A stretch of 64,000 nt of DNA from Leeuwenhoekiella polynyae. Its GTDB lineage: Bacteria > Bacteroidota > Bacteroidia > Flavobacteriales > Flavobacteriaceae. Within the stretch, counting starts at the first letter, position 1. Every line of letters begins with the position of its first letter. Under the pieces are notes generated by a model. It was not told the DNA's origin, did no database searches, and saw only the letters and a program-made list of their open reading frames with translations. The translations under genes were made by a program, and so were the position numbers. Positions 27,921 through 44,746 of this stretch are shown here, one piece after another. The stretch spans positions 1 to 64,000 of the forward strand of contig NZ_QOVK01000022.1 in assembly GCF_004104075.1 (NCBI RefSeq), written 5' to 3'.

Positions 27921-28577
27921 ATGAAAATTCAGAATCCTTTCAACAACTTTGATCAAGGTTTAGAAAAACTAAACTCGGCTTCGAAAAAAGCCTTCAACTT
28001 CTTAAACCGCGATAATCGCGTTAAATCAATATTAATTTTAGCAGTAGGCGTTGCCGCTGCATCATTTACAACAAAAACTATTATGGAAAAAGTAAGCGTA
28101 AAAAGCAGTTCGATCACTTGGTTAGGTAAAAAAGTTACCGGAAAACACATGGGAACCATCGACCTTAAAGAAGGTTATTTTGAAATGGATGGCGAGAACA
28201 TTACAGGCGGTGAATTTGTTATAGACATGAACAGCATTGTTTGTACTGACCTGGAAGGAGACAGCAAAGGCCAGTTAGAAGGTCACCTAAAAAGCGATGA
28301 CTTCTTTGGAGTAGAAAACTTTCCTACAGCAAAATTAGTGATTACAAAAGCAGTAAAAGAAGGCAATTCTTATGCAGTAAGCGGTGATCTAACAATTAAA
28401 GAAACTACAGAGCCTGTTACTTTTGAACTAGAAAAAGCGGGTGATACCTTCACGACCACTTTAACTATAGACCGAAGTAAATACAATGTACGTTACGGTT
28501 CAGGAAGTTTCTTTGATAATTTAGGTGATAAAACCATTTACGATGATTTCACCTTAGATATCAACTTATCTATTTAA
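27921..28577 (+). CDS. YceI family protein with N-terminal membrane segment
   Basis: A 218-residue protein. Residues 1-33 are polar, residues 35-52 (KSILILAVGVAAASFTT) form a membrane or uncleaved signal segment, and the rest is a YceI lipocalin-like domain (WLGKKVTGKHMGTIDLKEGY, HLKSDDFFGVENFPTA, LTIDRSKYNVRYGSGSFF). YceI proteins bind isoprenoid-type lipids in a closed barrel. It lies 46 bp after the nitroreductase gene. This MarR-nitroreductase-YceI arrangement suggests a shared stress response. The long polar N-terminus before the hydrophobic segment is unusual. Confidence 0.87.
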   Translation: MKIQNPFNNFDQGLEKLNSASKKAFNFLNRDNRVKSILILAVGVAAASFTTKTIMEKVSVKSSSITWLGKKVTGKHMGTIDLKEGYFEMDGENITGGEFVIDMNSIVCTDLEGDSKGQLEGHLKSDDFFGVENFPTAKLVITKAVKEGNSYAVSGDLTIKETTEPVTFELEKAGDTFTTTLTIDRSKYNVRYGSGSFFDNLGDKTIYDDFTLDINLSI

Positions 28578-28604: not shown

Positions 28605-28635
28605 TTTGCCGCTTCAGCATCAATTTTTATCTTTG
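28605..28635 (+). promoter_or_regulatory. trp operon promoter
   Basis: TTTG at 28605-28608, exactly 19 bases, then TATCTTTG at 28628-28635: a full match to the Bacteroidota TTTG-N19-TANNTTTG consensus. Transcription should start around 28640-28643, only a few bases before the leader peptide ATG, so the leader mRNA would have almost no 5' untranslated part. Confidence 0.82.
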
Positions 28636-28644
28636 GTGCTCATT

Positions 28645-28692
28645 ATGAAAAACAAAACAGTAAATACTTGGTGGTGGATCTCGCAACAGTAA
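28645..28692 (+). CDS. trpL: trp operon leader peptide (three consecutive Trp codons)
   Basis: A 15-residue open frame, MKNKTVNTWWWISQQ, ending in TAA. Three TGG codons in a row at residues 9-11 are the classic sensor of tryptophanyl-tRNA supply. It sits right after a good promoter and is followed by the antiterminator and terminator segments at 28694-28764, then trpE. When Trp-tRNA is scarce the ribosome should stall on the Trp codons and favour read-through. Confidence 0.9.
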   Translation: MKNKTVNTWWWISQQ

Positions 28693-28693
28693 C

Positions 28694-28764
28694 GTCGTGA
28701 AGCAACCTTGTATTTAAATTTCAAATAAAAAAAAGGCCTGTCTCACGACAGGCCTTTTTTGTTT
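28694..28764 (+). promoter_or_regulatory. trp attenuator (antiterminator and terminator)
   Basis: The terminator is AAAAGGCCTGTC (28731-28742), loop TCAC, GACAGGCCTTTT (from 28747) with a T-run: a 12-bp stem. The competing segment GTCGTGA at 28694-28700, directly after the leader stop codon, is the exact complement of TCACGAC at 28743-28749, which covers the terminator loop and part of its 3' arm. The two structures exclude each other. trpE begins 20 bp after the hairpin. Confidence 0.88.
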
Positions 28765-28784
28765 TACCAGCATATCAACCCAAG

Positions 28785-30182
28785 ATGAAGTACATTTTAA
28801 AAACACACAGCAAAAAGATCCTGGCCGATACGATAACTCCCGTTTCGGTCTATTTGCGCCTGAGAGATAAATTTCCCAATAGTTTACTCCTGGAGAGTAG
28901 TGATTATCGAGCTAATGACAACACCTTCAGTTATATTTGCTGTAATCCTATCGCCTCTATTTCCATTAAAAATGAGGAAATAAAAGAAGCGTTTCCTGAT
29001 GGAACTTTGCAGGTTACTCCAATAGAATCAGACACTGATGTTGTGGGCATTATTGAAGGTTTTGCTAAAAATTTTGAAACGGACACCAACGAGAAAAAGT
29101 TCATACAAAATGGTCTTTTTGGCTATATGAGTTATGATGGTGTTCGGTATTTTGAAGATATTGAGATCACTAAAAAAGAAGGCGCTCTTGATATTCCCGA
29201 TATGTATTACGCAGTGTATCAAAACATCATTGCGATCAATCACTTCAACAACGAAGCGCATATTTTTTCACATACCTACGAGAGCGAAAATAATCTGGAT
29301 CAGATTGCACAATTATTAAGGGTAAAGAGTTTTGCTGAATACAACTTCAAGTTAGAAGGGGAGCAAAAATCGGTGATTACAGATGAGGAGTTTATTGCTT
29401 TGGTCGACACCTGCAAAAAGCACTGTCAGCGAGGGGATGTTTTTCAAATTGTACCTTCTAAACGCTTTTCACAGGGTTTCAGCGGTGATGAATTTAACGT
29501 ATACCGAAGCCTGCGTAGTGTAAACCCCTCTCCGTATCTGTTCTATTTTGACTACGGAAATTTCAAAATCTTTGGCAGTTCGCCTGAAGCGCAACTAATT
29601 GTTCAGGATGGCAAAGCCGAAATTCACCCCATCGCGGGCACCTTTAAACGTACCGGTAATGATGAGAAAGATGCTGCTTTAGCTAAAAAATTATCAGAAG
29701 ATGCAAAAGAGAACAGCGAGCATGTGATGCTGGTTGATCTGGCACGCAACGACCTCAGCCGTAATGGAAGCAATGTAAAAGTAGAAACCTACCGCGAGGT
29801 ACAATACTTCTCCCATGTGATTCACCTGGTTAGTAAAGTAACCGGGACCAAACACCCGGAAACCTCTACGATGCGGGTGGTTGCAGACACCTTCCCGGCA
29901 GGAACACTAAGCGGAGCTCCCAAGCATAATGCGATGAAATTGCTAGAGAAATACGAACCGATAAATAGAGATTTCTACGGTGGCGCCATAGGCTTTATGG
30001 ACTTTAACGGAAACTTCAATCACGCCATAATCATTCGTTCTTTTTTAAGTAAAAACCATCAATTGCATTATCAGGCAGGTGCTGGTATTGTAAGCGACAG
30101 TGTCCCTTCAAAAGAACTCGAAGAAGTATATAACAAATTAGGAGCGCTTACTAAAGCACTTAAACTGGCTGAAGAAATATAA
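28785..30182 (+). CDS. trpE: Anthranilate synthase component I
   Basis: Converts chorismate and ammonia (or glutamine through TrpG) to anthranilate, the first committed step of tryptophan synthesis. The 465 residues include the N-terminal regulatory segment with LLESSDYR, the feedback-inhibition motif, and the chorismate-binding core (GDVFQIVPSKRF, PEAQLIV, HPIAGTFKRTGND, LVDLARNDLSR, GGAIGFMDF). First gene of trpEGDCFBA; trpG follows after 1 bp. Confidence 0.97.
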   Translation: MKYILKTHSKKILADTITPVSVYLRLRDKFPNSLLLESSDYRANDNTFSYICCNPIASISIKNEEIKEAFPDGTLQVTPIESDTDVVGIIEGFAKNFETDTNEKKFIQNGLFGYMSYDGVRYFEDIEITKKEGALDIPDMYYAVYQNIIAINHFNNEAHIFSHTYESENNLDQIAQLLRVKSFAEYNFKLEGEQKSVITDEEFIALVDTCKKHCQRGDVFQIVPSKRFSQGFSGDEFNVYRSLRSVNPSPYLFYFDYGNFKIFGSSPEAQLIVQDGKAEIHPIAGTFKRTGNDEKDAALAKKLSEDAKENSEHVMLVDLARNDLSRNGSNVKVETYREVQYFSHVIHLVSKVTGTKHPETSTMRVVADTFPAGTLSGAPKHNAMKLLEKYEPINRDFYGGAIGFMDFNGNFNHAIIIRSFLSKNHQLHYQAGAGIVSDSVPSKELEEVYNKLGALTKALKLAEEI

Positions 30183-30183
30183 A

Positions 30184-30756
30184 ATGAAAATACAAGTTTT
30201 AGTAATCGACAATTACGACAGTTTTGTGTACAATCTGGTTCACTATTTAGAAGATCTGGACTGCCAGGTAACTGTAAAACGTAACGACCAACTCCAACTG
30301 GAAGAAGTCGCTGCATATGATAAAATCTTATTATCTCCGGGACCGGGAATACCGGATGAAGCCGGACTTTTAAAAGACATCATCAAAACCTACGCGGCTA
30401 CCAAAAGTATGTTTGGGGTCTGCCTGGGGCAACAAGCTATCGGCGAAGTTTTTGGTGGAACACTTATTAATCTCGATCAGGTTTTTCATGGGGTGGCCAC
30501 CTCGGCTAAGCAATTGGTTACAGACGAACCTTTATTTAAAGATATTCCTGAGGAGTTTGAAATAGGCCGGTATCACTCTTGGGTGGTTGCCCCTGAAAAT
30601 TTCCCAAAAGATCTCGAGATTACTGCTGTAGATGTTAACGGTCAAATCATGTCATTACGCCATAGAGAATACGATGTGCGCGGCGTACAGTTTCATCCCG
30701 AGTCGGTTTTAACTCCGGAAGGGAAGAAAATGATCAAAAATTGGGTAACGAGCTAA
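30184..30756 (+). CDS. trpG: Anthranilate synthase component II (glutamine amidotransferase)
   Basis: Supplies ammonia from glutamine to TrpE. The 190-residue class I amidotransferase has VIDNYDSFVYNLVHYL, SPGPGIPDEAG, the nucleophile in GVCLGQQAIGE, and the His/Glu pair in VQFHPESVLTPEGK. Length is usual for a free-standing TrpG. It could also serve PabB, as in some species, but the operon makes the Trp role clear. Confidence 0.97.
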   Translation: MKIQVLVIDNYDSFVYNLVHYLEDLDCQVTVKRNDQLQLEEVAAYDKILLSPGPGIPDEAGLLKDIIKTYAATKSMFGVCLGQQAIGEVFGGTLINLDQVFHGVATSAKQLVTDEPLFKDIPEEFEIGRYHSWVVAPENFPKDLEITAVDVNGQIMSLRHREYDVRGVQFHPESVLTPEGKKMIKNWVTS

Positions 30757-30766
30757 TCGTTTTTCC

Positions 30767-30898
30767 ATTTCCGTAAAGGCGGAAATCTCAATTAAAAAAA
30801 ATTACATTTCCGCGAAGGCAGAAATCTCTTAAAACAGAACTACAAACATTAAAAAAGCACTCTCCCTTGTGGAGAGATGCCCGGAGGGCAGAGAGGGA
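30767..30898. repeat. Palindromic repeats between trpG and trpD
   Basis: Three units. ATTTCCGTAAAGGCGGAAAT at 30767-30786 and ATTTCCGCGAAGGCAGAAAT at 30806-30825 are near-identical palindromes 39 bp apart. CTCTCCCTTGTGGAGAG at 30860-30876 is followed by TGCCCGGAGGGCA and gagaggga, and ends only 1 bp before the trpD ATG. Similar tttccgcgaagg units occur at 21969-22022. Confidence 0.7.
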
Positions 30899-30899
30899 C

Positions 30900-31895
30900 A
30901 TGAAAATACTATTAAACAGACTGATCAATCACGAGCAACTCAACAAATCAGAGGCACGTGACGTGCTGGTCAACATATCAGAAGGAAAGTACAACACCAG
31001 CCAGATCGCTGCATTCATAACGGTCTATATGATGCGTAGCATTACTGTCGAGGAGTTGGCAGGTTTTAGGGATGCGTTGCAGGATCTGTGTATCGCTGTG
31101 CCTTTTAAAGGCTATAATGCGATCGACTTATGTGGTACCGGTGGGGATGGTAAAGATACATTCAACATTTCTACCTTATCTTCTTTTGTTGCTGCGGGTG
31201 CAGGAATAAATGTCACTAAACACGGCAATTACGGCGTATCTTCTGTGAGCGGAAGTAGTAATGTGATGGAGCATCTGGGCATCAAGTTCAGCAATGATAA
31301 AGACTTTTTAAAACGTTGTCTGGATGAAGCGGGCATTTGTGTACTACACGCTCCCCTATTTCACCCGGCAATGAAAAATGTGGGACCCATCCGTCGGGAA
31401 CTGGGCGTAAAAACCTTTTTCAATATGCTCGGCCCTATGGTTAATCCTGCTTTTCCGGAGAATCAATTGGTAGGTGTTTTCAATCTGGAATTAGCAAGAC
31501 TGTACGGTTATTTATATCAAAAGACCGATAAAAACTTTACGATTCTACACAGTATTGATGGTTATGATGAAATTTCATTGACCGGAAATACCAAAGCGAT
31601 CCGAAACAACAGCGAGCGCATGCTGAGTGCAGAAGACTTTGGGGTTTCAACTATTAAACAAGAAGACATCTATGGTGGTAATAGTGTTGAATCTTCAGCG
31701 GAAATCTTCAAAAAGGTAATAAGCGGTAAAGGCACTGAAGCGCAAAACAATGTGGTTGCCGCAAATGCAGGTATGGCCATTGCCACAGTAAAAAACCTGG
31801 AACCTAAAGCAGGTTTTGATCTGGCTAAAGAGTCGTTGCTTAGTGGTAAAGGATTAGAAAAACTGAATAAATTAATAGAACTCAGCAGCAAGTAA
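30900..31895 (+). CDS. trpD: Anthranilate phosphoribosyltransferase
   Basis: Attaches phosphoribosyl to anthranilate. The 331 residues (from ATG 30900) contain the PRPP site DLCGTGGDGKDTFNIST, KHGNYGVSSVSGSSNVMEHLG, and NVGPIRRELGVKTFFNMLGP. A longer frame from 30867 lies in the palindromic repeat before the gene and gives an Arg-rich tail unlike the family, so the start at MKILLNRL is chosen. trpC follows after 1 bp. Confidence 0.96.
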   Translation: MKILLNRLINHEQLNKSEARDVLVNISEGKYNTSQIAAFITVYMMRSITVEELAGFRDALQDLCIAVPFKGYNAIDLCGTGGDGKDTFNISTLSSFVAAGAGINVTKHGNYGVSSVSGSSNVMEHLGIKFSNDKDFLKRCLDEAGICVLHAPLFHPAMKNVGPIRRELGVKTFFNMLGPMVNPAFPENQLVGVFNLELARLYGYLYQKTDKNFTILHSIDGYDEISLTGNTKAIRNNSERMLSAEDFGVSTIKQEDIYGGNSVESSAEIFKKVISGKGTEAQNNVVAANAGMAIATVKNLEPKAGFDLAKESLLSGKGLEKLNKLIELSSK

Positions 31896-31896
31896 A

Positions 31897-32676
31897 ATGA
31901 ACATTTTAGATAAAATAGTTGCAGATAAATTTAAGGAGGTTGCCTTACGCAAACAGCTTATTCCGGCTAGTCAACTGGAGCAATCGGTTCTTTTTGACCG
32001 GAAATCCCCATCATTGGCTACCGCTTTAAGTACGAGTAATTCTGGGATTATCGCAGAACACAAACGCCGCTCTCCAAGCAAGCAGGTTATCAATCATACC
32101 CTCAATGTTCAGGATGTAGCAACCGGGTATGAAAATGCAGGTGTTTGTGGTATGAGCGTGCTTACAGACGGAAAATATTTTGGTGGCTCCCTAGATGATT
32201 TGCTTTTAGCCCGCGCAGTAAGCAAGTTTCCGCTTTTGCGCAAAGAATTTATTATTGATGAGTATCAGATCTTAGAAGCCAAAGCCTATGGTGCTGATGT
32301 GATCTTACTGATCGCTGCGGTTCTTACGCGTGAAGAGATTAAAAACTTTTCTGAATTTGCGAAGTCTTTAGGACTGGATGTACTTTTAGAAGTCCACAAT
32401 CTGGAGGAGTTAGAAAAGTCAATTATGCCTTCATTAGATATGCTGGGCGTCAACAACCGCAACCTTAAAACTTTTGAGGTGAGTTTAGACACCAGTAAAA
32501 CCTTGTCAACTAAAATTCCCGATGATTTTGTGAAAGTTTCTGAAAGCGGCATCAGCTCGATCGACGCTATTAAAGAATTGCAACCTTATGGGTACAAAGG
32601 GTTTTTGATAGGCGAAAACTTTATGAAAACAGACAACCCGGGCGCAAGTGCAACCGAGTTTATAAAAAACCTTTGA
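31897..32676 (+). CDS. trpC: Indole-3-glycerol phosphate synthase
   Basis: Closes the indole ring to form indole-3-glycerol phosphate. The 259-residue TIM barrel starts MNILDKIVADKFKEVALR. It shows IIAEHKRRSPSK (catalytic Lys), GMSVLTDGKYFGGSLDDL, LRKEFIIDEYQ, LLEVHNLEEL, GVNNRNLKTFE and VSESGI, the full TrpC set. It is a separate gene, not fused to trpF. The 86-bp gap to trpF contains a degenerate repeat (ctcccttcctttccaaggag, 32686-32705). Confidence 0.97.
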   Translation: MNILDKIVADKFKEVALRKQLIPASQLEQSVLFDRKSPSLATALSTSNSGIIAEHKRRSPSKQVINHTLNVQDVATGYENAGVCGMSVLTDGKYFGGSLDDLLLARAVSKFPLLRKEFIIDEYQILEAKAYGADVILLIAAVLTREEIKNFSEFAKSLGLDVLLEVHNLEELEKSIMPSLDMLGVNNRNLKTFEVSLDTSKTLSTKIPDDFVKVSESGISSIDAIKELQPYGYKGFLIGENFMKTDNPGASATEFIKNL

Positions 32677-32762
32677 TAAAAAGCTCCCTTCCTTTCCAAG
32701 GAGGGGAAATTTCAGCTTACTGAAACAGGGTATGTTATACTCCCTCTGATAAGAATTATAAA

Positions 32763-33482
32763 ATGAAAGATCAGGACACAACTAAAAATCAACCTTCAGC
32801 TTCTTTAAAGCCTGCCGAGCTGCAGCTTAAAATTTGCGGAATGAAATACAATACTGCTGAAGTTGCACAGCTTCAACCGGATTATTTAGGGTTTATTTTT
32901 TACGAAAAGAGTCCGCGTAATTACGACCTTTCTGAAATTCCTTCGCTCACGCTCGGAATTAAAAAAGTGGGTGTGTTTGTAAATGCTGACCTGAATTTTG
33001 TTTTAGAAAAAATCGATCAATTCAATTTTGATGTTATTCAGCTCCACGGGAACGAGTCTCCTGAATATTGTGAGGAACTGAATCACAAATTAGACAAAAA
33101 ATTAATTGATAAAGAGTATGGATCTAGAATGGATATCTGGAAAGTCTTCAGCATCAAAGACACCTTTGATTTTTCAATCTTAGAAGACTATGAGGCTGTG
33201 GTTGACAAATTTTTATTTGACACCAAAGGCAAAGAAAAAGGTGGTAACGGCTATACCTTTGACTGGAGCGTTTTAAATGATTACAAGGCTCAGAAACCGT
33301 TCATCCTAAGTGGCGGAATTGGTTTGGAAGAATTAGCTGCTGTGCAAGAATTACAAAAAACGGATTTACCACTGTATGCTATTGATGTAAATAGCAAATT
33401 TGAAGACCGACCTGGATTGAAGAATATCGAAAATCTAAATAAATTGATGGGTTCTTTTGAACCTATTAAAAGAGCAGAATAA
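32763..33482 (+). CDS. trpF: Phosphoribosylanthranilate isomerase
   Basis: Isomerises phosphoribosylanthranilate in tryptophan synthesis. The 239-residue barrel contains LKICGMKYNTAEVAQLQPDY (active-site Cys in ICGM), GFIFYEKSPR, VGVFVNADLN, DVIQLHGNESPEYC, LFDTKGKEKGGNGYTFDWSV and ILSGGIGLEE (shown in pieces). It is longer than the usual 200-220 residues because of a polar N-terminal tail of about 20 residues before LQLKICGM. The start at ATG 32763 is the only good one. Followed by an 86-bp gap with a repeat unit. Confidence 0.95.
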   Translation: MKDQDTTKNQPSASLKPAELQLKICGMKYNTAEVAQLQPDYLGFIFYEKSPRNYDLSEIPSLTLGIKKVGVFVNADLNFVLEKIDQFNFDVIQLHGNESPEYCEELNHKLDKKLIDKEYGSRMDIWKVFSIKDTFDFSILEDYEAVVDKFLFDTKGKEKGGNGYTFDWSVLNDYKAQKPFILSGGIGLEELAAVQELQKTDLPLYAIDVNSKFEDRPGLKNIENLNKLMGSFEPIKRAE

Positions 33483-33504
33483 AAAATAGAAATAGCAATA
33501 AAAG

Positions 33505-33556
33505 ATTTCAGCTACGAGTTTATCCTAAGCGATAGTCGAAGGGCGGAAATGAAAAT
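33505..33556. repeat. REP-like unit between trpF and trpB
   Basis: The run atttcagctacgag then tatcctaagcgatagtcgaagg and gcggaaat resembles the unit at 34868-34918 (catttccgcc ... tatcctgagcgtgagtcgaagg). It is one of several palindromic units in the gaps of the trp operon. Confidence 0.5.
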
Positions 33557-33568
33557 ATAGAATAAAAA

Positions 33569-34753
33569 ATGAACTACAACGTAAACGAAAAAGGATATTA
33601 CGGTGATTTTGGAGGCGCTTACATACCCGAAATGCTGTATCCAAATGTAGAAGAATTGCGCCAGAATTACATAAAAGTGATGCAAGAACCTGATTTTCAA
33701 AAGGAGTTTAAAGAGCTCTTGAAAGAATATGTAGGTCGCCCTACTCCACTTTATTATGCGAAGCGTTTTTCTGAAAAATACGGTACTAAAGTCTATCTAA
33801 AACGGGAAGACCTGTGTCACACTGGTGCGCATAAAGTAAACAATACCATTGGACAAATTTTAATGGCAAAGCGCTTGGGTAAGAATCGAATCATCGCTGA
33901 GACCGGTGCCGGTCAACATGGAGTTGCAACGGCCACGGTTTGCGCATTAATGGGCTTAGAGTGTATCGTGTATATGGGCGCTATCGACATCAAACGCCAG
34001 GCTCCTAATGTGGCCCGTATGAAAATGCTGGGAGCAACAGTAGTTTCGGCAGAATCTGGTAGTAAAACACTTAAAGATGCTACTAATGAAGCCATTCGCG
34101 ACTGGATCAACAATCCTACAGATACGCATTATATCATAGGTAGTGTAGTGGGTCCACATCCGTATCCAGATATGGTTGCACGTTTTCAGAGTGTGATTTC
34201 TGAAGAGGTAAAAAAGCAGTTGCTGGAAAAAGAAGGACGTGAAAATCCGGATTATGTTGTGGCTTGTGTTGGTGGCGGGAGTAATGCTGCAGGGATCTTT
34301 TATCATTACTTAGACAAACCTGAAGTAGGCATTATTGCTGTTGAAGCTGCCGGAAAAGGAATACACTCTGGAGAAAGTGCTGCGACTTCAGCTTTAGGTA
34401 AAGAGGGCATCATCCACGGAAGCAAAACCCTTTTGATGCAAACCGATGATGGTCAGATCACCGAGCCGTATTCCATTTCAGCAGGATTGGACTACCCGGG
34501 AGTTGGACCCATGCACGCACATTTGTTTAGAAGTGGCCGCGGTGAATTCATCAGCGTAACGGATGCGGATGCAATGCAAGCCGGTTTAGACTTATGTAAG
34601 CTAGAAGGCATCATCCCGGCAATTGAATCGTCTCATGCACTTGCCATTTTTGAAGACCGAAAGTTCAGGAAAGATGATGTAGTTGTGGTTAATTTAAGTG
34701 GTCGAGGTGATAAAGATTTGAATACCTATATAGAATATTTTGACCTTGCATAA
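33569..34753 (+). CDS. trpB: Tryptophan synthase beta chain
   Basis: PLP enzyme that joins indole and serine. The 394 residues start with [20 protein letters not shown]. They contain the PLP lysine in [28 protein letters not shown], the phosphate-binding [10 protein letters not shown] and the C-terminal LSGRGDKD. Length and motifs match the TrpB1 class that pairs with TrpA. Its partner trpA follows after a 185-bp gap with repeats. Confidence 0.98.
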
Positions 34754-34938
34754 GGGTGTTCCTTGTGCTATTGCGCAAGGCGAGCTTTCGGCAGTCGCTT
34801 TTATTTTATGATAAAAACCACTTAAAAAAGAGCTCCAACAAAGCCTAATTCCCTAACGCAAACTTTAAAATAACATTTCCGCCTAAGGATTATCCTGAGC
34901 GTGAGTCGAAGGACGGTAATGACTAAAAAAAGATATAA
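34754..34938. repeat. Repeat-containing gap between trpB and trpA
   Basis: Contains CCTTGTGC-TATT-GCGCAAGG (about 34762-34781), an 8-bp stem without a T-run directly after it, followed by cgagctttcggcagtcgc; and tatcctgagcgtgagtcgaagg near 34888-34909. These look like dispersed palindromes rather than a terminator, since trpA follows in the same direction. Confidence 0.5.
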
Positions 34939-35703
34939 ATGAACAGAATAAATAAAAAATTACAGGAAGACAAGAAGTTGCTTTCTATCTATTTTACGGC
35001 AGGATATCCCAAATTGGAAGATACAGTACCGGTATTGGAAGAGTTGGTTAAATCCGGAGTTGATATGATTGAGATTGGGCTTCCGTTTAGTGACCCTTTA
35101 GCAGATGGACCTACCATTCAGGAGAGCTCTACTACTGCGCTAAAAAACGGAATGACCACCGCAAAGCTTTTTGATCAGATCAAAGACATTAGAAAAACGG
35201 TTGACATTCCTTTAATCGTTATGGGGTATTTCAACCCCATGCTTCAGTACGGTGTTGAGAAATTTTGCAAAGCATGTTCTGAAATCGGTATTGACGGACT
35301 CATCATGCCAGATCTGCCGCTTGCTGAATATGAAGAACATTACAAAGCTACATTTGAAAAGTATGATCTTAAAATGGTCTTTTTGATCACACCGCAGACT
35401 TCAGACAAGCGTATTAAACAGATAGATACTGCTAGTGACGGCTTCATTTATATGGTGAGTAGTGCGAGCACTACCGGTAAAACTTCAGGCTTCAGCAACG
35501 TGCAAAGGGATTATTTTGAACGAATTGATGCTTTGAATCTTAAAAACCCACAGATCGTAGGTTTTGGAATAAAAGATGAAGAGACGTTTAAAGCGGCTAC
35601 TAAAACCGCAAAAGGCGCCATTATTGGTTCAGCATTTATAAAAATGCTTACTGAAAAAGGAATTGAAGGGATTTCAAGCTTTATCAAATCAATAAGACCT
35701 TGA
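34939..35703 (+). CDS. trpA: Tryptophan synthase alpha chain
   Basis: Cleaves indole-3-glycerol phosphate and channels indole to TrpB. The 254-residue TIM barrel contains IEIGLPFSDPLADGPTIQ (catalytic Glu and Asp region), YFNPMLQYGVEKF, DGLIMPDLPLAEYEE, FLITPQTS and GFGIKDEETF. Length is usual. Last gene of the operon. Confidence 0.97.
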   Translation: MNRINKKLQEDKKLLSIYFTAGYPKLEDTVPVLEELVKSGVDMIEIGLPFSDPLADGPTIQESSTTALKNGMTTAKLFDQIKDIRKTVDIPLIVMGYFNPMLQYGVEKFCKACSEIGIDGLIMPDLPLAEYEEHYKATFEKYDLKMVFLITPQTSDKRIKQIDTASDGFIYMVSSASTTGKTSGFSNVQRDYFERIDALNLKNPQIVGFGIKDEETFKAATKTAKGAIIGSAFIKMLTEKGIEGISSFIKSIRP

Positions 35704-44562: not shown

Positions 44563-44615
44563 CTACGAGGTATTTAAATGAAACAATTTTTTAACTACGA
44601 GGCAAGCCTCGAAAC
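44563..44615. repeat. Dispersed intergenic repeat, partial copy 3
   Basis: ctacgaggtatttaaatgaa to gcaagcctcgaaac. It shares acgaggtatttaaat with 919-933 and resembles the first halves of 25272-25356 and 37635-37708. The arms ctacgagg and gcaagcctc suggest an inverted-repeat origin. Confidence 0.5.
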
Positions 44616-44746
44616 ATTTAAACTTCGATTATCGAGTAAATTTTAAAAGAAGATAATTTTCAACTCATTCAACCCTCGATTATCGAGTAAACAAGGCTTC
44701 AAAGAACGTTATTTTTAGAATAAATAGGCAAAAAAAATGATTGCAA

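Follow-up and report, generated by a model that had tools for sequence, protein, structure and literature searches.

Introduction

It is already known that trpL of E. coli combines a leader peptide containing Trp codons, competing RNA folds and an intrinsic terminator. A leaderless trp attenuator, trpL of S. meliloti, is reported to have the trans-acting products rnTrpL and peTrpL (PMC7298713). For Bacteroidota, the Bacteroid-trp motif (Rfam RF01692) is listed in Table 1 of Weinberg et al. 2010, whose main text contains neither “tryptophan” nor “leader peptide” (PMC2864571). A 2019 paper noted its conservation upstream of the Flavobacterium psychrophilum trp operon and likened it to E. coli attenuation (PMC6414381), and in 2021 strong clues for leader-peptide attenuation upstream of amino-acid operons were given, together with structured elements without Rfam hits before pheA and hisG, among others (PMC9723704).

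The initial annotation of the locus studied here, found in a stretch of 64,000 nucleotides from Leeuwenhoekiella polynyae (the window), called leader-peptide control in Bacteroidota little described, which in view of these three reports was an overstatement. Its reading of a trp attenuator is well supported as a mechanism by comparison, but the novelty was overstated, as the window matches RF01692. The kind of element is already known; what is new is the anatomy, namely a predicted two-part antiterminator, a stop codon at its edge, a probably near-leaderless start and a spread beyond the Rfam model.

Comparison with Described Systems

The region 28640-28760 of the window, which as read from the sequence holds the leader, the antiterminator strands and the terminator, very probably acts as a ribosome-mediated transcription attenuator upstream of trpEGDCFBA (28785-35703, gene identities by Pfam). 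All elements first proposed before trpE (leader ORF, TGG codons, complementary segments, terminator) were seen again on re-reading the sequence. The features are as follows:

28605-28635, + strand: putative Bacteroidota-type promoter, TTTG (28605-28608), 19-nt spacer and TATCTTTG (28628-28635; TAnnTTTG), from the sequence and the published consensus
28645-28692, + strand: leader peptide ORF MKNKTVNTWWWISQQ-stop, 15 codons, ATG at 28645 to TAA at 28690-28692, from the sequence; a leader is present in 77 of 77 relatives with enough upstream DNA
28661-28716, + strand: predicted alternative hairpin, leader codons on 3' flank, burying the antiterminator segment, from MFE folds (28640-28760 and flank-shuffle set)
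28669-28677, + strand: three regulatory Trp codons TGG TGG TGG, from the sequence
28694-28700, + strand: antiterminator outer strand GUCGUGA, pairing with 28743-28749
28702-28709, + strand: antiterminator inner strand, GCA (28702-28704) and CCUU (28706-28709), pairing with 28739-28741 and 28733-28736 of the terminator 5' arm in partial-transcript folds
28729-28760, + strand: intrinsic terminator, 14-pair stem, loop UCAC (28743-28746) and U-rich 3' arm end, from fold and scan
28785-30182, + strand: trpE (anthranilate synthase I; Pfam PF04715, PF00425), first gene of the operon, start codon ATG at 28785
30184-35703, + strand: trpG, trpD, trpC, trpF, trpB and trpA, from Pfam matches of six translations

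The match to RF01692 (model positions 1-131) spans 28625-28742 and scores 55.1 bits, the cut-off being 49; with a score above the cut-off and a location before trp biosynthesis genes in Bacteroidota the element belongs to this family, the only one in Rfam above cut-off in the window. The match ends in the terminator 5' arm and the pairs of the model are those of the leader hairpin, 10 of the 24 being non-standard in the window by our own count of the alignment marks; by that alignment RF01692 holds neither terminator nor antiterminator. To the E. coli-type Trp_leader family (RF00513) the element does not belong (21.7 bits, below the cut-off of 41). Even so, E. coli trpL works alike as far as its Trp-codon leader peptide, competing folds and terminator are concerned, while unlike it this leader has a 5'UTR of probably about 5 nt, and the stop codon ends the antiterminator core in most relatives (85 of 106). 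With trpL of S. meliloti, the locus would share Trp attenuation and, judging by its promoter box, a leader ORF at or next to the RNA 5' end; the phylum is another one, and trans-acting products are reported for S. meliloti (PMC7298713).

In a survey of the phylum, RF01692 was found in 30 of 296 genomes drawn (E <= 0.001), 28 of them over the cut-off, and in the family of the window in 43 of 60 genomes (E <= 0.001; 37 over the cut-off). For comparison, 80 trpE loci were taken as the best 80 of 528 relatives, of which 77 had enough upstream DNA (L013, L024 and L026 were excluded). This trpE set, together with the RF01692 loci of the phylum survey and with the window included, gave 107 elements, 106 of which were scored, L108 being without a core. 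The alignment A1 holds 98 distinct elements, with L108 and L086 left out. The window TrpE is 100% identical to that of Leeuwenhoekiella aestuarii, and the DNA around it is 97.2-98.6% identical.

Leader Peptide and Ribosome Geometry

The region has the leader ORF, the intrinsic terminator and the mutually exclusive antiterminator of ribosome-mediated attenuators, as judged from the sequence, an assumed footprint and computed folds. The 15-residue ORF with three adjacent TGG codons is seen at 28645-28692 just as annotated (TGGs at 28669-28677). Three adjacent Trp codons are present in 104 of the 106 scored elements and two in the other 2, and apart from these codons the peptide sequence is variable among relatives. 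The antiterminator core begins 17-23 nt past the last Trp codon (19 nt in 90 of 106). In E. coli the front edge of the ribosome lies about 14 nt past the first base of the A-site codon; with this edge assumed, the core is free when the ribosome stands at the last Trp codon and masked when it stands at the stop codon in 105 of 106 elements, all 77 of the trpE relative set among them, and L102 fails the masking by one nucleotide. The last three letters of the core are the stop codon in 85 of 106 elements; in 13, the window included, the stop codon lies upstream of the core, and in 8 downstream or elsewhere. The CGUGA core is exact in 100 of 107 elements and is kept in several frames, which points to a role as RNA rather than as codons, so that it seems to be conserved as RNA.

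In L. aestuarii and L. marinoflava (L002, L003), the leader has a net in-frame insertion of 30 codons between MKNK and VNTWWW, while the window and L. blandensis (L007) are without it. The insertion lies upstream of the Trp codons, and the layout downstream is unchanged in both sister species. Pieces of it resemble 44604-44641 and 44675-44691 of the window and other loci, and it is perhaps a dispersed repeat.

The same peptide data bear on the reading, drawn by analogy, that the RNA of about 120 nt or the leader peptide acts in trans and that attenuation is only a part of its role. Such products are reported for the leaderless trpL of S. meliloti (PMC7298713), but a peptide that varies outside its Trp codons, and that takes up a net 30 residues in two relatives, makes this improbable here, and attenuation in cis is kept as the main reading.

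Terminator, Antiterminator and Competing Folds

The terminator fold has -20.7 kcal/mol (z -7.43), and none of 200 shuffles was equally stable. A terminator at 28729-28760 was thus correctly annotated, but with 12 bp where folding gives 14 pairs. An A run precedes it and a T run follows, and a pattern scan reports it on the minus strand; judged by these letters, it may end transcription coming from the opposite direction too.

The exact complementarity of GTCGTGA (28694-28700) to TCACGAC (28743-28749) was seen as described. It is not, however, a minimal 7-bp antiterminator, as the initial annotation had it, since in the folds these 7 bp make up the outer half of a longer helix, which has two parts and 14 pairs and captures the terminator 5' arm too. 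In the exposed RNA 28686-28749, GUCGUGA, GCA and CCUU pair with UCACGAC, UGU and AAGG, which makes 14 pairs; together with a small hairpin inside it the fold has -14.6 kcal/mol, a stability that 2 of 200 shuffles reach. Folding with the whole leader (28640-28749) keeps the antiterminator pairs in the optimal structure, although here 31 of 200 shuffles match its stability. Partial-transcript folds gave at least 5 core pairs in 94 of the 98 aligned elements, and the inner strand made 3-11 pairs with the terminator 5' arm or the first loop letters in 98 of 98 folds (a count without shuffle control). Elsewhere in the genome, the pair UCGUGA...UCACGA occurs at 5 places against 6 for a control pattern, which is chance level; a 6-bp complementarity alone therefore says little, and it is position and conservation that make it meaningful.

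With the 3' end extended by single bases, the antiterminator is the best fold until 28754 and the terminator from 28755, while with a ribosome standing on the stop codon, which leaves the RNA free from 28704 onward, terminator formation begins at 28749. The last dozen or so RNA bases are hidden by the polymerase, so that at the moment of U-run synthesis the antiterminator can already be fully formed. Once complete, the terminator is more stable than the antiterminator, which has to prevail by kinetics, and in these folds the trp leader can work as a kinetic switch.

The predicted hairpin 28661-28716 resembles segments 1:2 of E. coli trp and lies in the region of the RF01692 model stem. The consensus fold over the leader hairpin region of our own alignment gave nothing (energy 0.0) and that of A1 gave the terminator and no other structure, after which single-sequence folds with flank shuffles were used for this hairpin. 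These folds lend it moderate support, with 11.7 enclosing pairs against 8.9 in the flank shuffles and 33 of 101 elements individually better; the segment 28669-28728 folded alone was no better than shuffles (165 of 200 equally stable).

Conservation and Covariation

The Trp leader (at least two adjacent Trp codons), the complementary segment (mostly CGUGA) and the terminator occur together in all 77 trpE loci with enough upstream DNA, so the search for WWW-type leaders that had been suggested as a check found adjacent Trp codons in every one of them. Over the 12 terminator pairs of A1, 100% of cells are paired, and 5 of these pairs show changes on both sides, a number reached by 0 of 500 shuffles. 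Conserved pairing of 28694-28700 with 28743-28749, the other suggested check, is borne out by 92.6% of A1 core cells being paired, against 3.2-55.2% in six slid controls, but the near-invariance of the core leaves little covariation. All 7 core pairs are present in 58 elements, 6 in 32 and 5 in 7; L077 is out of register in A1 and so counted as mostly unpaired in spite of its CUGUGA:UCACAG pairing. Changes on both sides affect two core pairs, one in L009 and the other in L110, whose register is doubtful; 6 of 500 shuffles reach this number of pairs. The observed values were also reached by 84 of 500 shuffles for cells changed on both sides, 39 for the covariation score, 87 for the percentage paired and 276 for pair types. 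Compensated changes are GUCGUAA:UUACGAC in L009 and that of L077 given above. In the duplex shuffle test, 35 of 106 main-set elements miss p <= 0.05.

In 8 of the 77 loci (L030, L038, L042, L046, L047, L060, L062 and L075) the terminator and trpE are separated by a small gene of some 70-100 residues, which puts the leader further upstream. By the look of its translation the gene may encode a GIY-YIG nuclease; it is adjoined by short palindromes, for example ATTTCCGCGAAGGCGGAAAT, and from its place it would fall under trp attenuation.

Conservation also weighs on the reading of the hairpin as a constitutive terminator, or a bidirectional one after the YceI gene, next to a short ORF that arose by chance. 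Its flanking A and T runs and its minus-strand report would suit such a role, as would the YceI gene itself, which ends at 28577 on the same strand, about 150 nt upstream of the hairpin. Against it, the Trp codons, the segment and the terminator stay together in 77 of 77 relatives, a promoter box precedes the leader, and the loop letters UCAC are nearly invariant in A1 although the terminator does not need them, so we regard this reading as very improbable. Control of the terminator by a T-box or a Trp riboswitch, through tRNA or ligand binding and not leader translation, can practically be dismissed, since for all its terminator and alternative folds the window has no such Rfam family above cut-off beside RF01692, and adjacent in-frame Trp codons with the stop-codon geometry of 105 of 106 elements speak for translation.

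Promoter and Probable Near-Leaderless Start

A sigma-70 promoter scan gave no plus-strand match, the promoter being of another type; the consensus promoter claimed by the initial annotation is present, but as the Bacteroidota box TAnnTTTG. We take the TTTG at 28605-28608 to be the upstream element of this promoter. The consensus box TAnnTTTG of Bacteroidota is located at -12 to -5 (PMC9723704), and because the box sits there, the start of the trp RNA is put at about 28640, almost at the leader AUG, with a 5'UTR of about 5 nt.

The box precedes 105 of 107 leaders in exact form and the other 2 as a TTTA variant, and the inferred 5'UTR is 0-8 nt in 83 of 107, 12-18 nt in 22 and longer in 2. All 16 loci of one genus (g2) have 12-16 nt, and outside it 83 of 91 leaders have 0-8 nt; the 17 minus-strand leaders, counted within the 107, mostly have 12-18 nt. 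As a control we took the long ORFs of the window and of the 80 loci, 48 of 423 of which are preceded by an exact box. At these ordinary promoters 7 of 48 have an inferred 5'UTR of 8 nt or less, with a median of 22, figures near those published for F. psychrophilum (median 24, 5.5% leaderless; PMC9723704), and because the procedure takes the box nearest to an in-frame ATG, with several ATGs possibly tried for leaders, the lengths lean short in both sets and more so for leaders. The near-absence of a 5'UTR, which had been called unusual, thus stands as an estimate from the box, but being common to most relatives it is no oddity.

Leaders of Other Operons and Other Families

In the same genome, MKRTALHHHHFYSRTQAR precedes hisG and is followed by a terminator (L156, contig C6), and a Phe-rich leader, also followed by a terminator, precedes prephenate dehydratase (L174, contig C3). 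Both have, in computed folds, a long antiterminator that competes with the terminator; in the his leader the complete terminator wins, and in the phe leader the antiterminator fold is best even in the full transcript. Neither locus has an Rfam match at the gathering cut-off. Fourteen his and fourteen phe loci were examined, 11 of each from this genus, and 13 in each set have such a leader. The his leader, which was found through hisG, has four adjacent His codons; a pattern of five adjacent His codons occurs at one place in the genome, which is not a leader.

The exact promoter box is present in few of the his and phe loci. With one mismatch allowed, for which there is no chance control, the box gives a 5'UTR of 4-6 nt in 10 of 13 his loci (6 nt in L156), and for phe loci, likewise without chance control, 4-18 nt depending on the start codon chosen (7 or 16 nt in L174). 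Before ilvD no branched-chain leader was found within the 600 nt examined in 12 of 14 loci, including that of the same genome (L187). In one locus of another family (L177, genome G364), MRVNNVILSIIILLCQL followed by a terminator precedes ilvD and is a plausible branched-chain amino-acid leader by its letters; a further ilvD candidate (L186) looks spurious.

For trpE beyond the family, 22 genomes were taken, 2 of other families with RF01692 and 20 of the 266 non-matching ones from the phylum survey. A clear TrpE was present in 19 of them, and distant relatives of TrpE only in 3. In 18 of these 19 further loci, two of which belong to the same family as the window, trpE is preceded by a leader whose Trp codons are adjacent (L117 has W-L-W), and RF01692 recognises 1 of these 18. 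A terminator was found by script in 15 and by eye in L120, L124 and L130, which are not in the duplex shuffle test because the terminator finder missed their stems. In L130 (genome G238) trpE follows an apparent trpB, and an RF01692 match lies about 1.3 kb upstream. Perfect pairings between leader tail and terminator, seen by eye, extend over 10 letters in L124, 9 in L126 and 8 in L122, and since only 3 of the 15 scored loci reach p <= 0.05 in the duplex shuffle test, the antiterminators of other genera remain proposals. The inferred 5'UTR is 0-6 nt in 13 of 18, two of them with a near-match box only; in L120 a promoter box was looked for nearby and is absent. One locus of another family (L108/L132, genome G281), which barely reaches RF01692 (49.8 bits), might rely on a different antiterminator formed by CAAAGTCTT with AAGACTTTG in the terminator 5' arm, a pairing that is not beyond shuffles (p 0.13).

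To hypothesize, the Trp attenuators of Bacteroidia, and perhaps those of his, could share one design, in which the leader ORF begins about 0-16 nt from the RNA 5' end, translation is coupled to transcription by ribosome entry at the emerging 5' end rather than at a Shine-Dalgarno site, and the layout has persisted while evolution rebuilt the antiterminator strand several times, often with the stop codon at its end. Initiation in flavobacteria is independent of Shine-Dalgarno sequences (PMC9723704). The 12-18 nt of most minus-strand leaders and the 4-18 nt of the phe leaders, with mostly variant boxes, make the shared design less likely, and we put it forward tentatively, as the less probable case.

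Proposed Mechanism

Taken together, we propose that a ribosome-mediated transcription attenuator controls the trp operon, with a probability of roughly 0.93. RNA polymerase would start at about 28640 and a ribosome would load at the AUG, almost at the RNA 5' end. When charged tRNA-Trp is scarce, this ribosome would wait at UGG UGG UGG with its front edge short of 28694, and GUCGUGA, with GCA and CCUU, would therefore be free to pair with the terminator 5' arm, with the loop and with the beginning of the 3' arm while these emerge from the polymerase; this helix being the more stable one until 28754 is exposed, the terminator would fail and trpE would be transcribed. When Trp is plentiful, the ribosome would reach the stop codon at 28690-28692 and cover GUCGUGA, and the 14-pair terminator would halt transcription. 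With no translation, the hairpin 28661-28716 may bury GUCGUGA and so make termination the default.

Conclusions

Attenuation by a leader peptide requires a ribosome close behind the polymerase. In the titles and abstract openings of the literature searched, PMC7366714 included, no direct test of transcription-translation coupling in this phylum was found. Nearly all trpE loci examined have a conserved and geometrically consistent attenuator, which speaks indirectly for such coupling there, and the trp attenuator could act as a reporter for testing it. Its anatomy also suggests that trp, his and phe leaders are under-annotated in this phylum.
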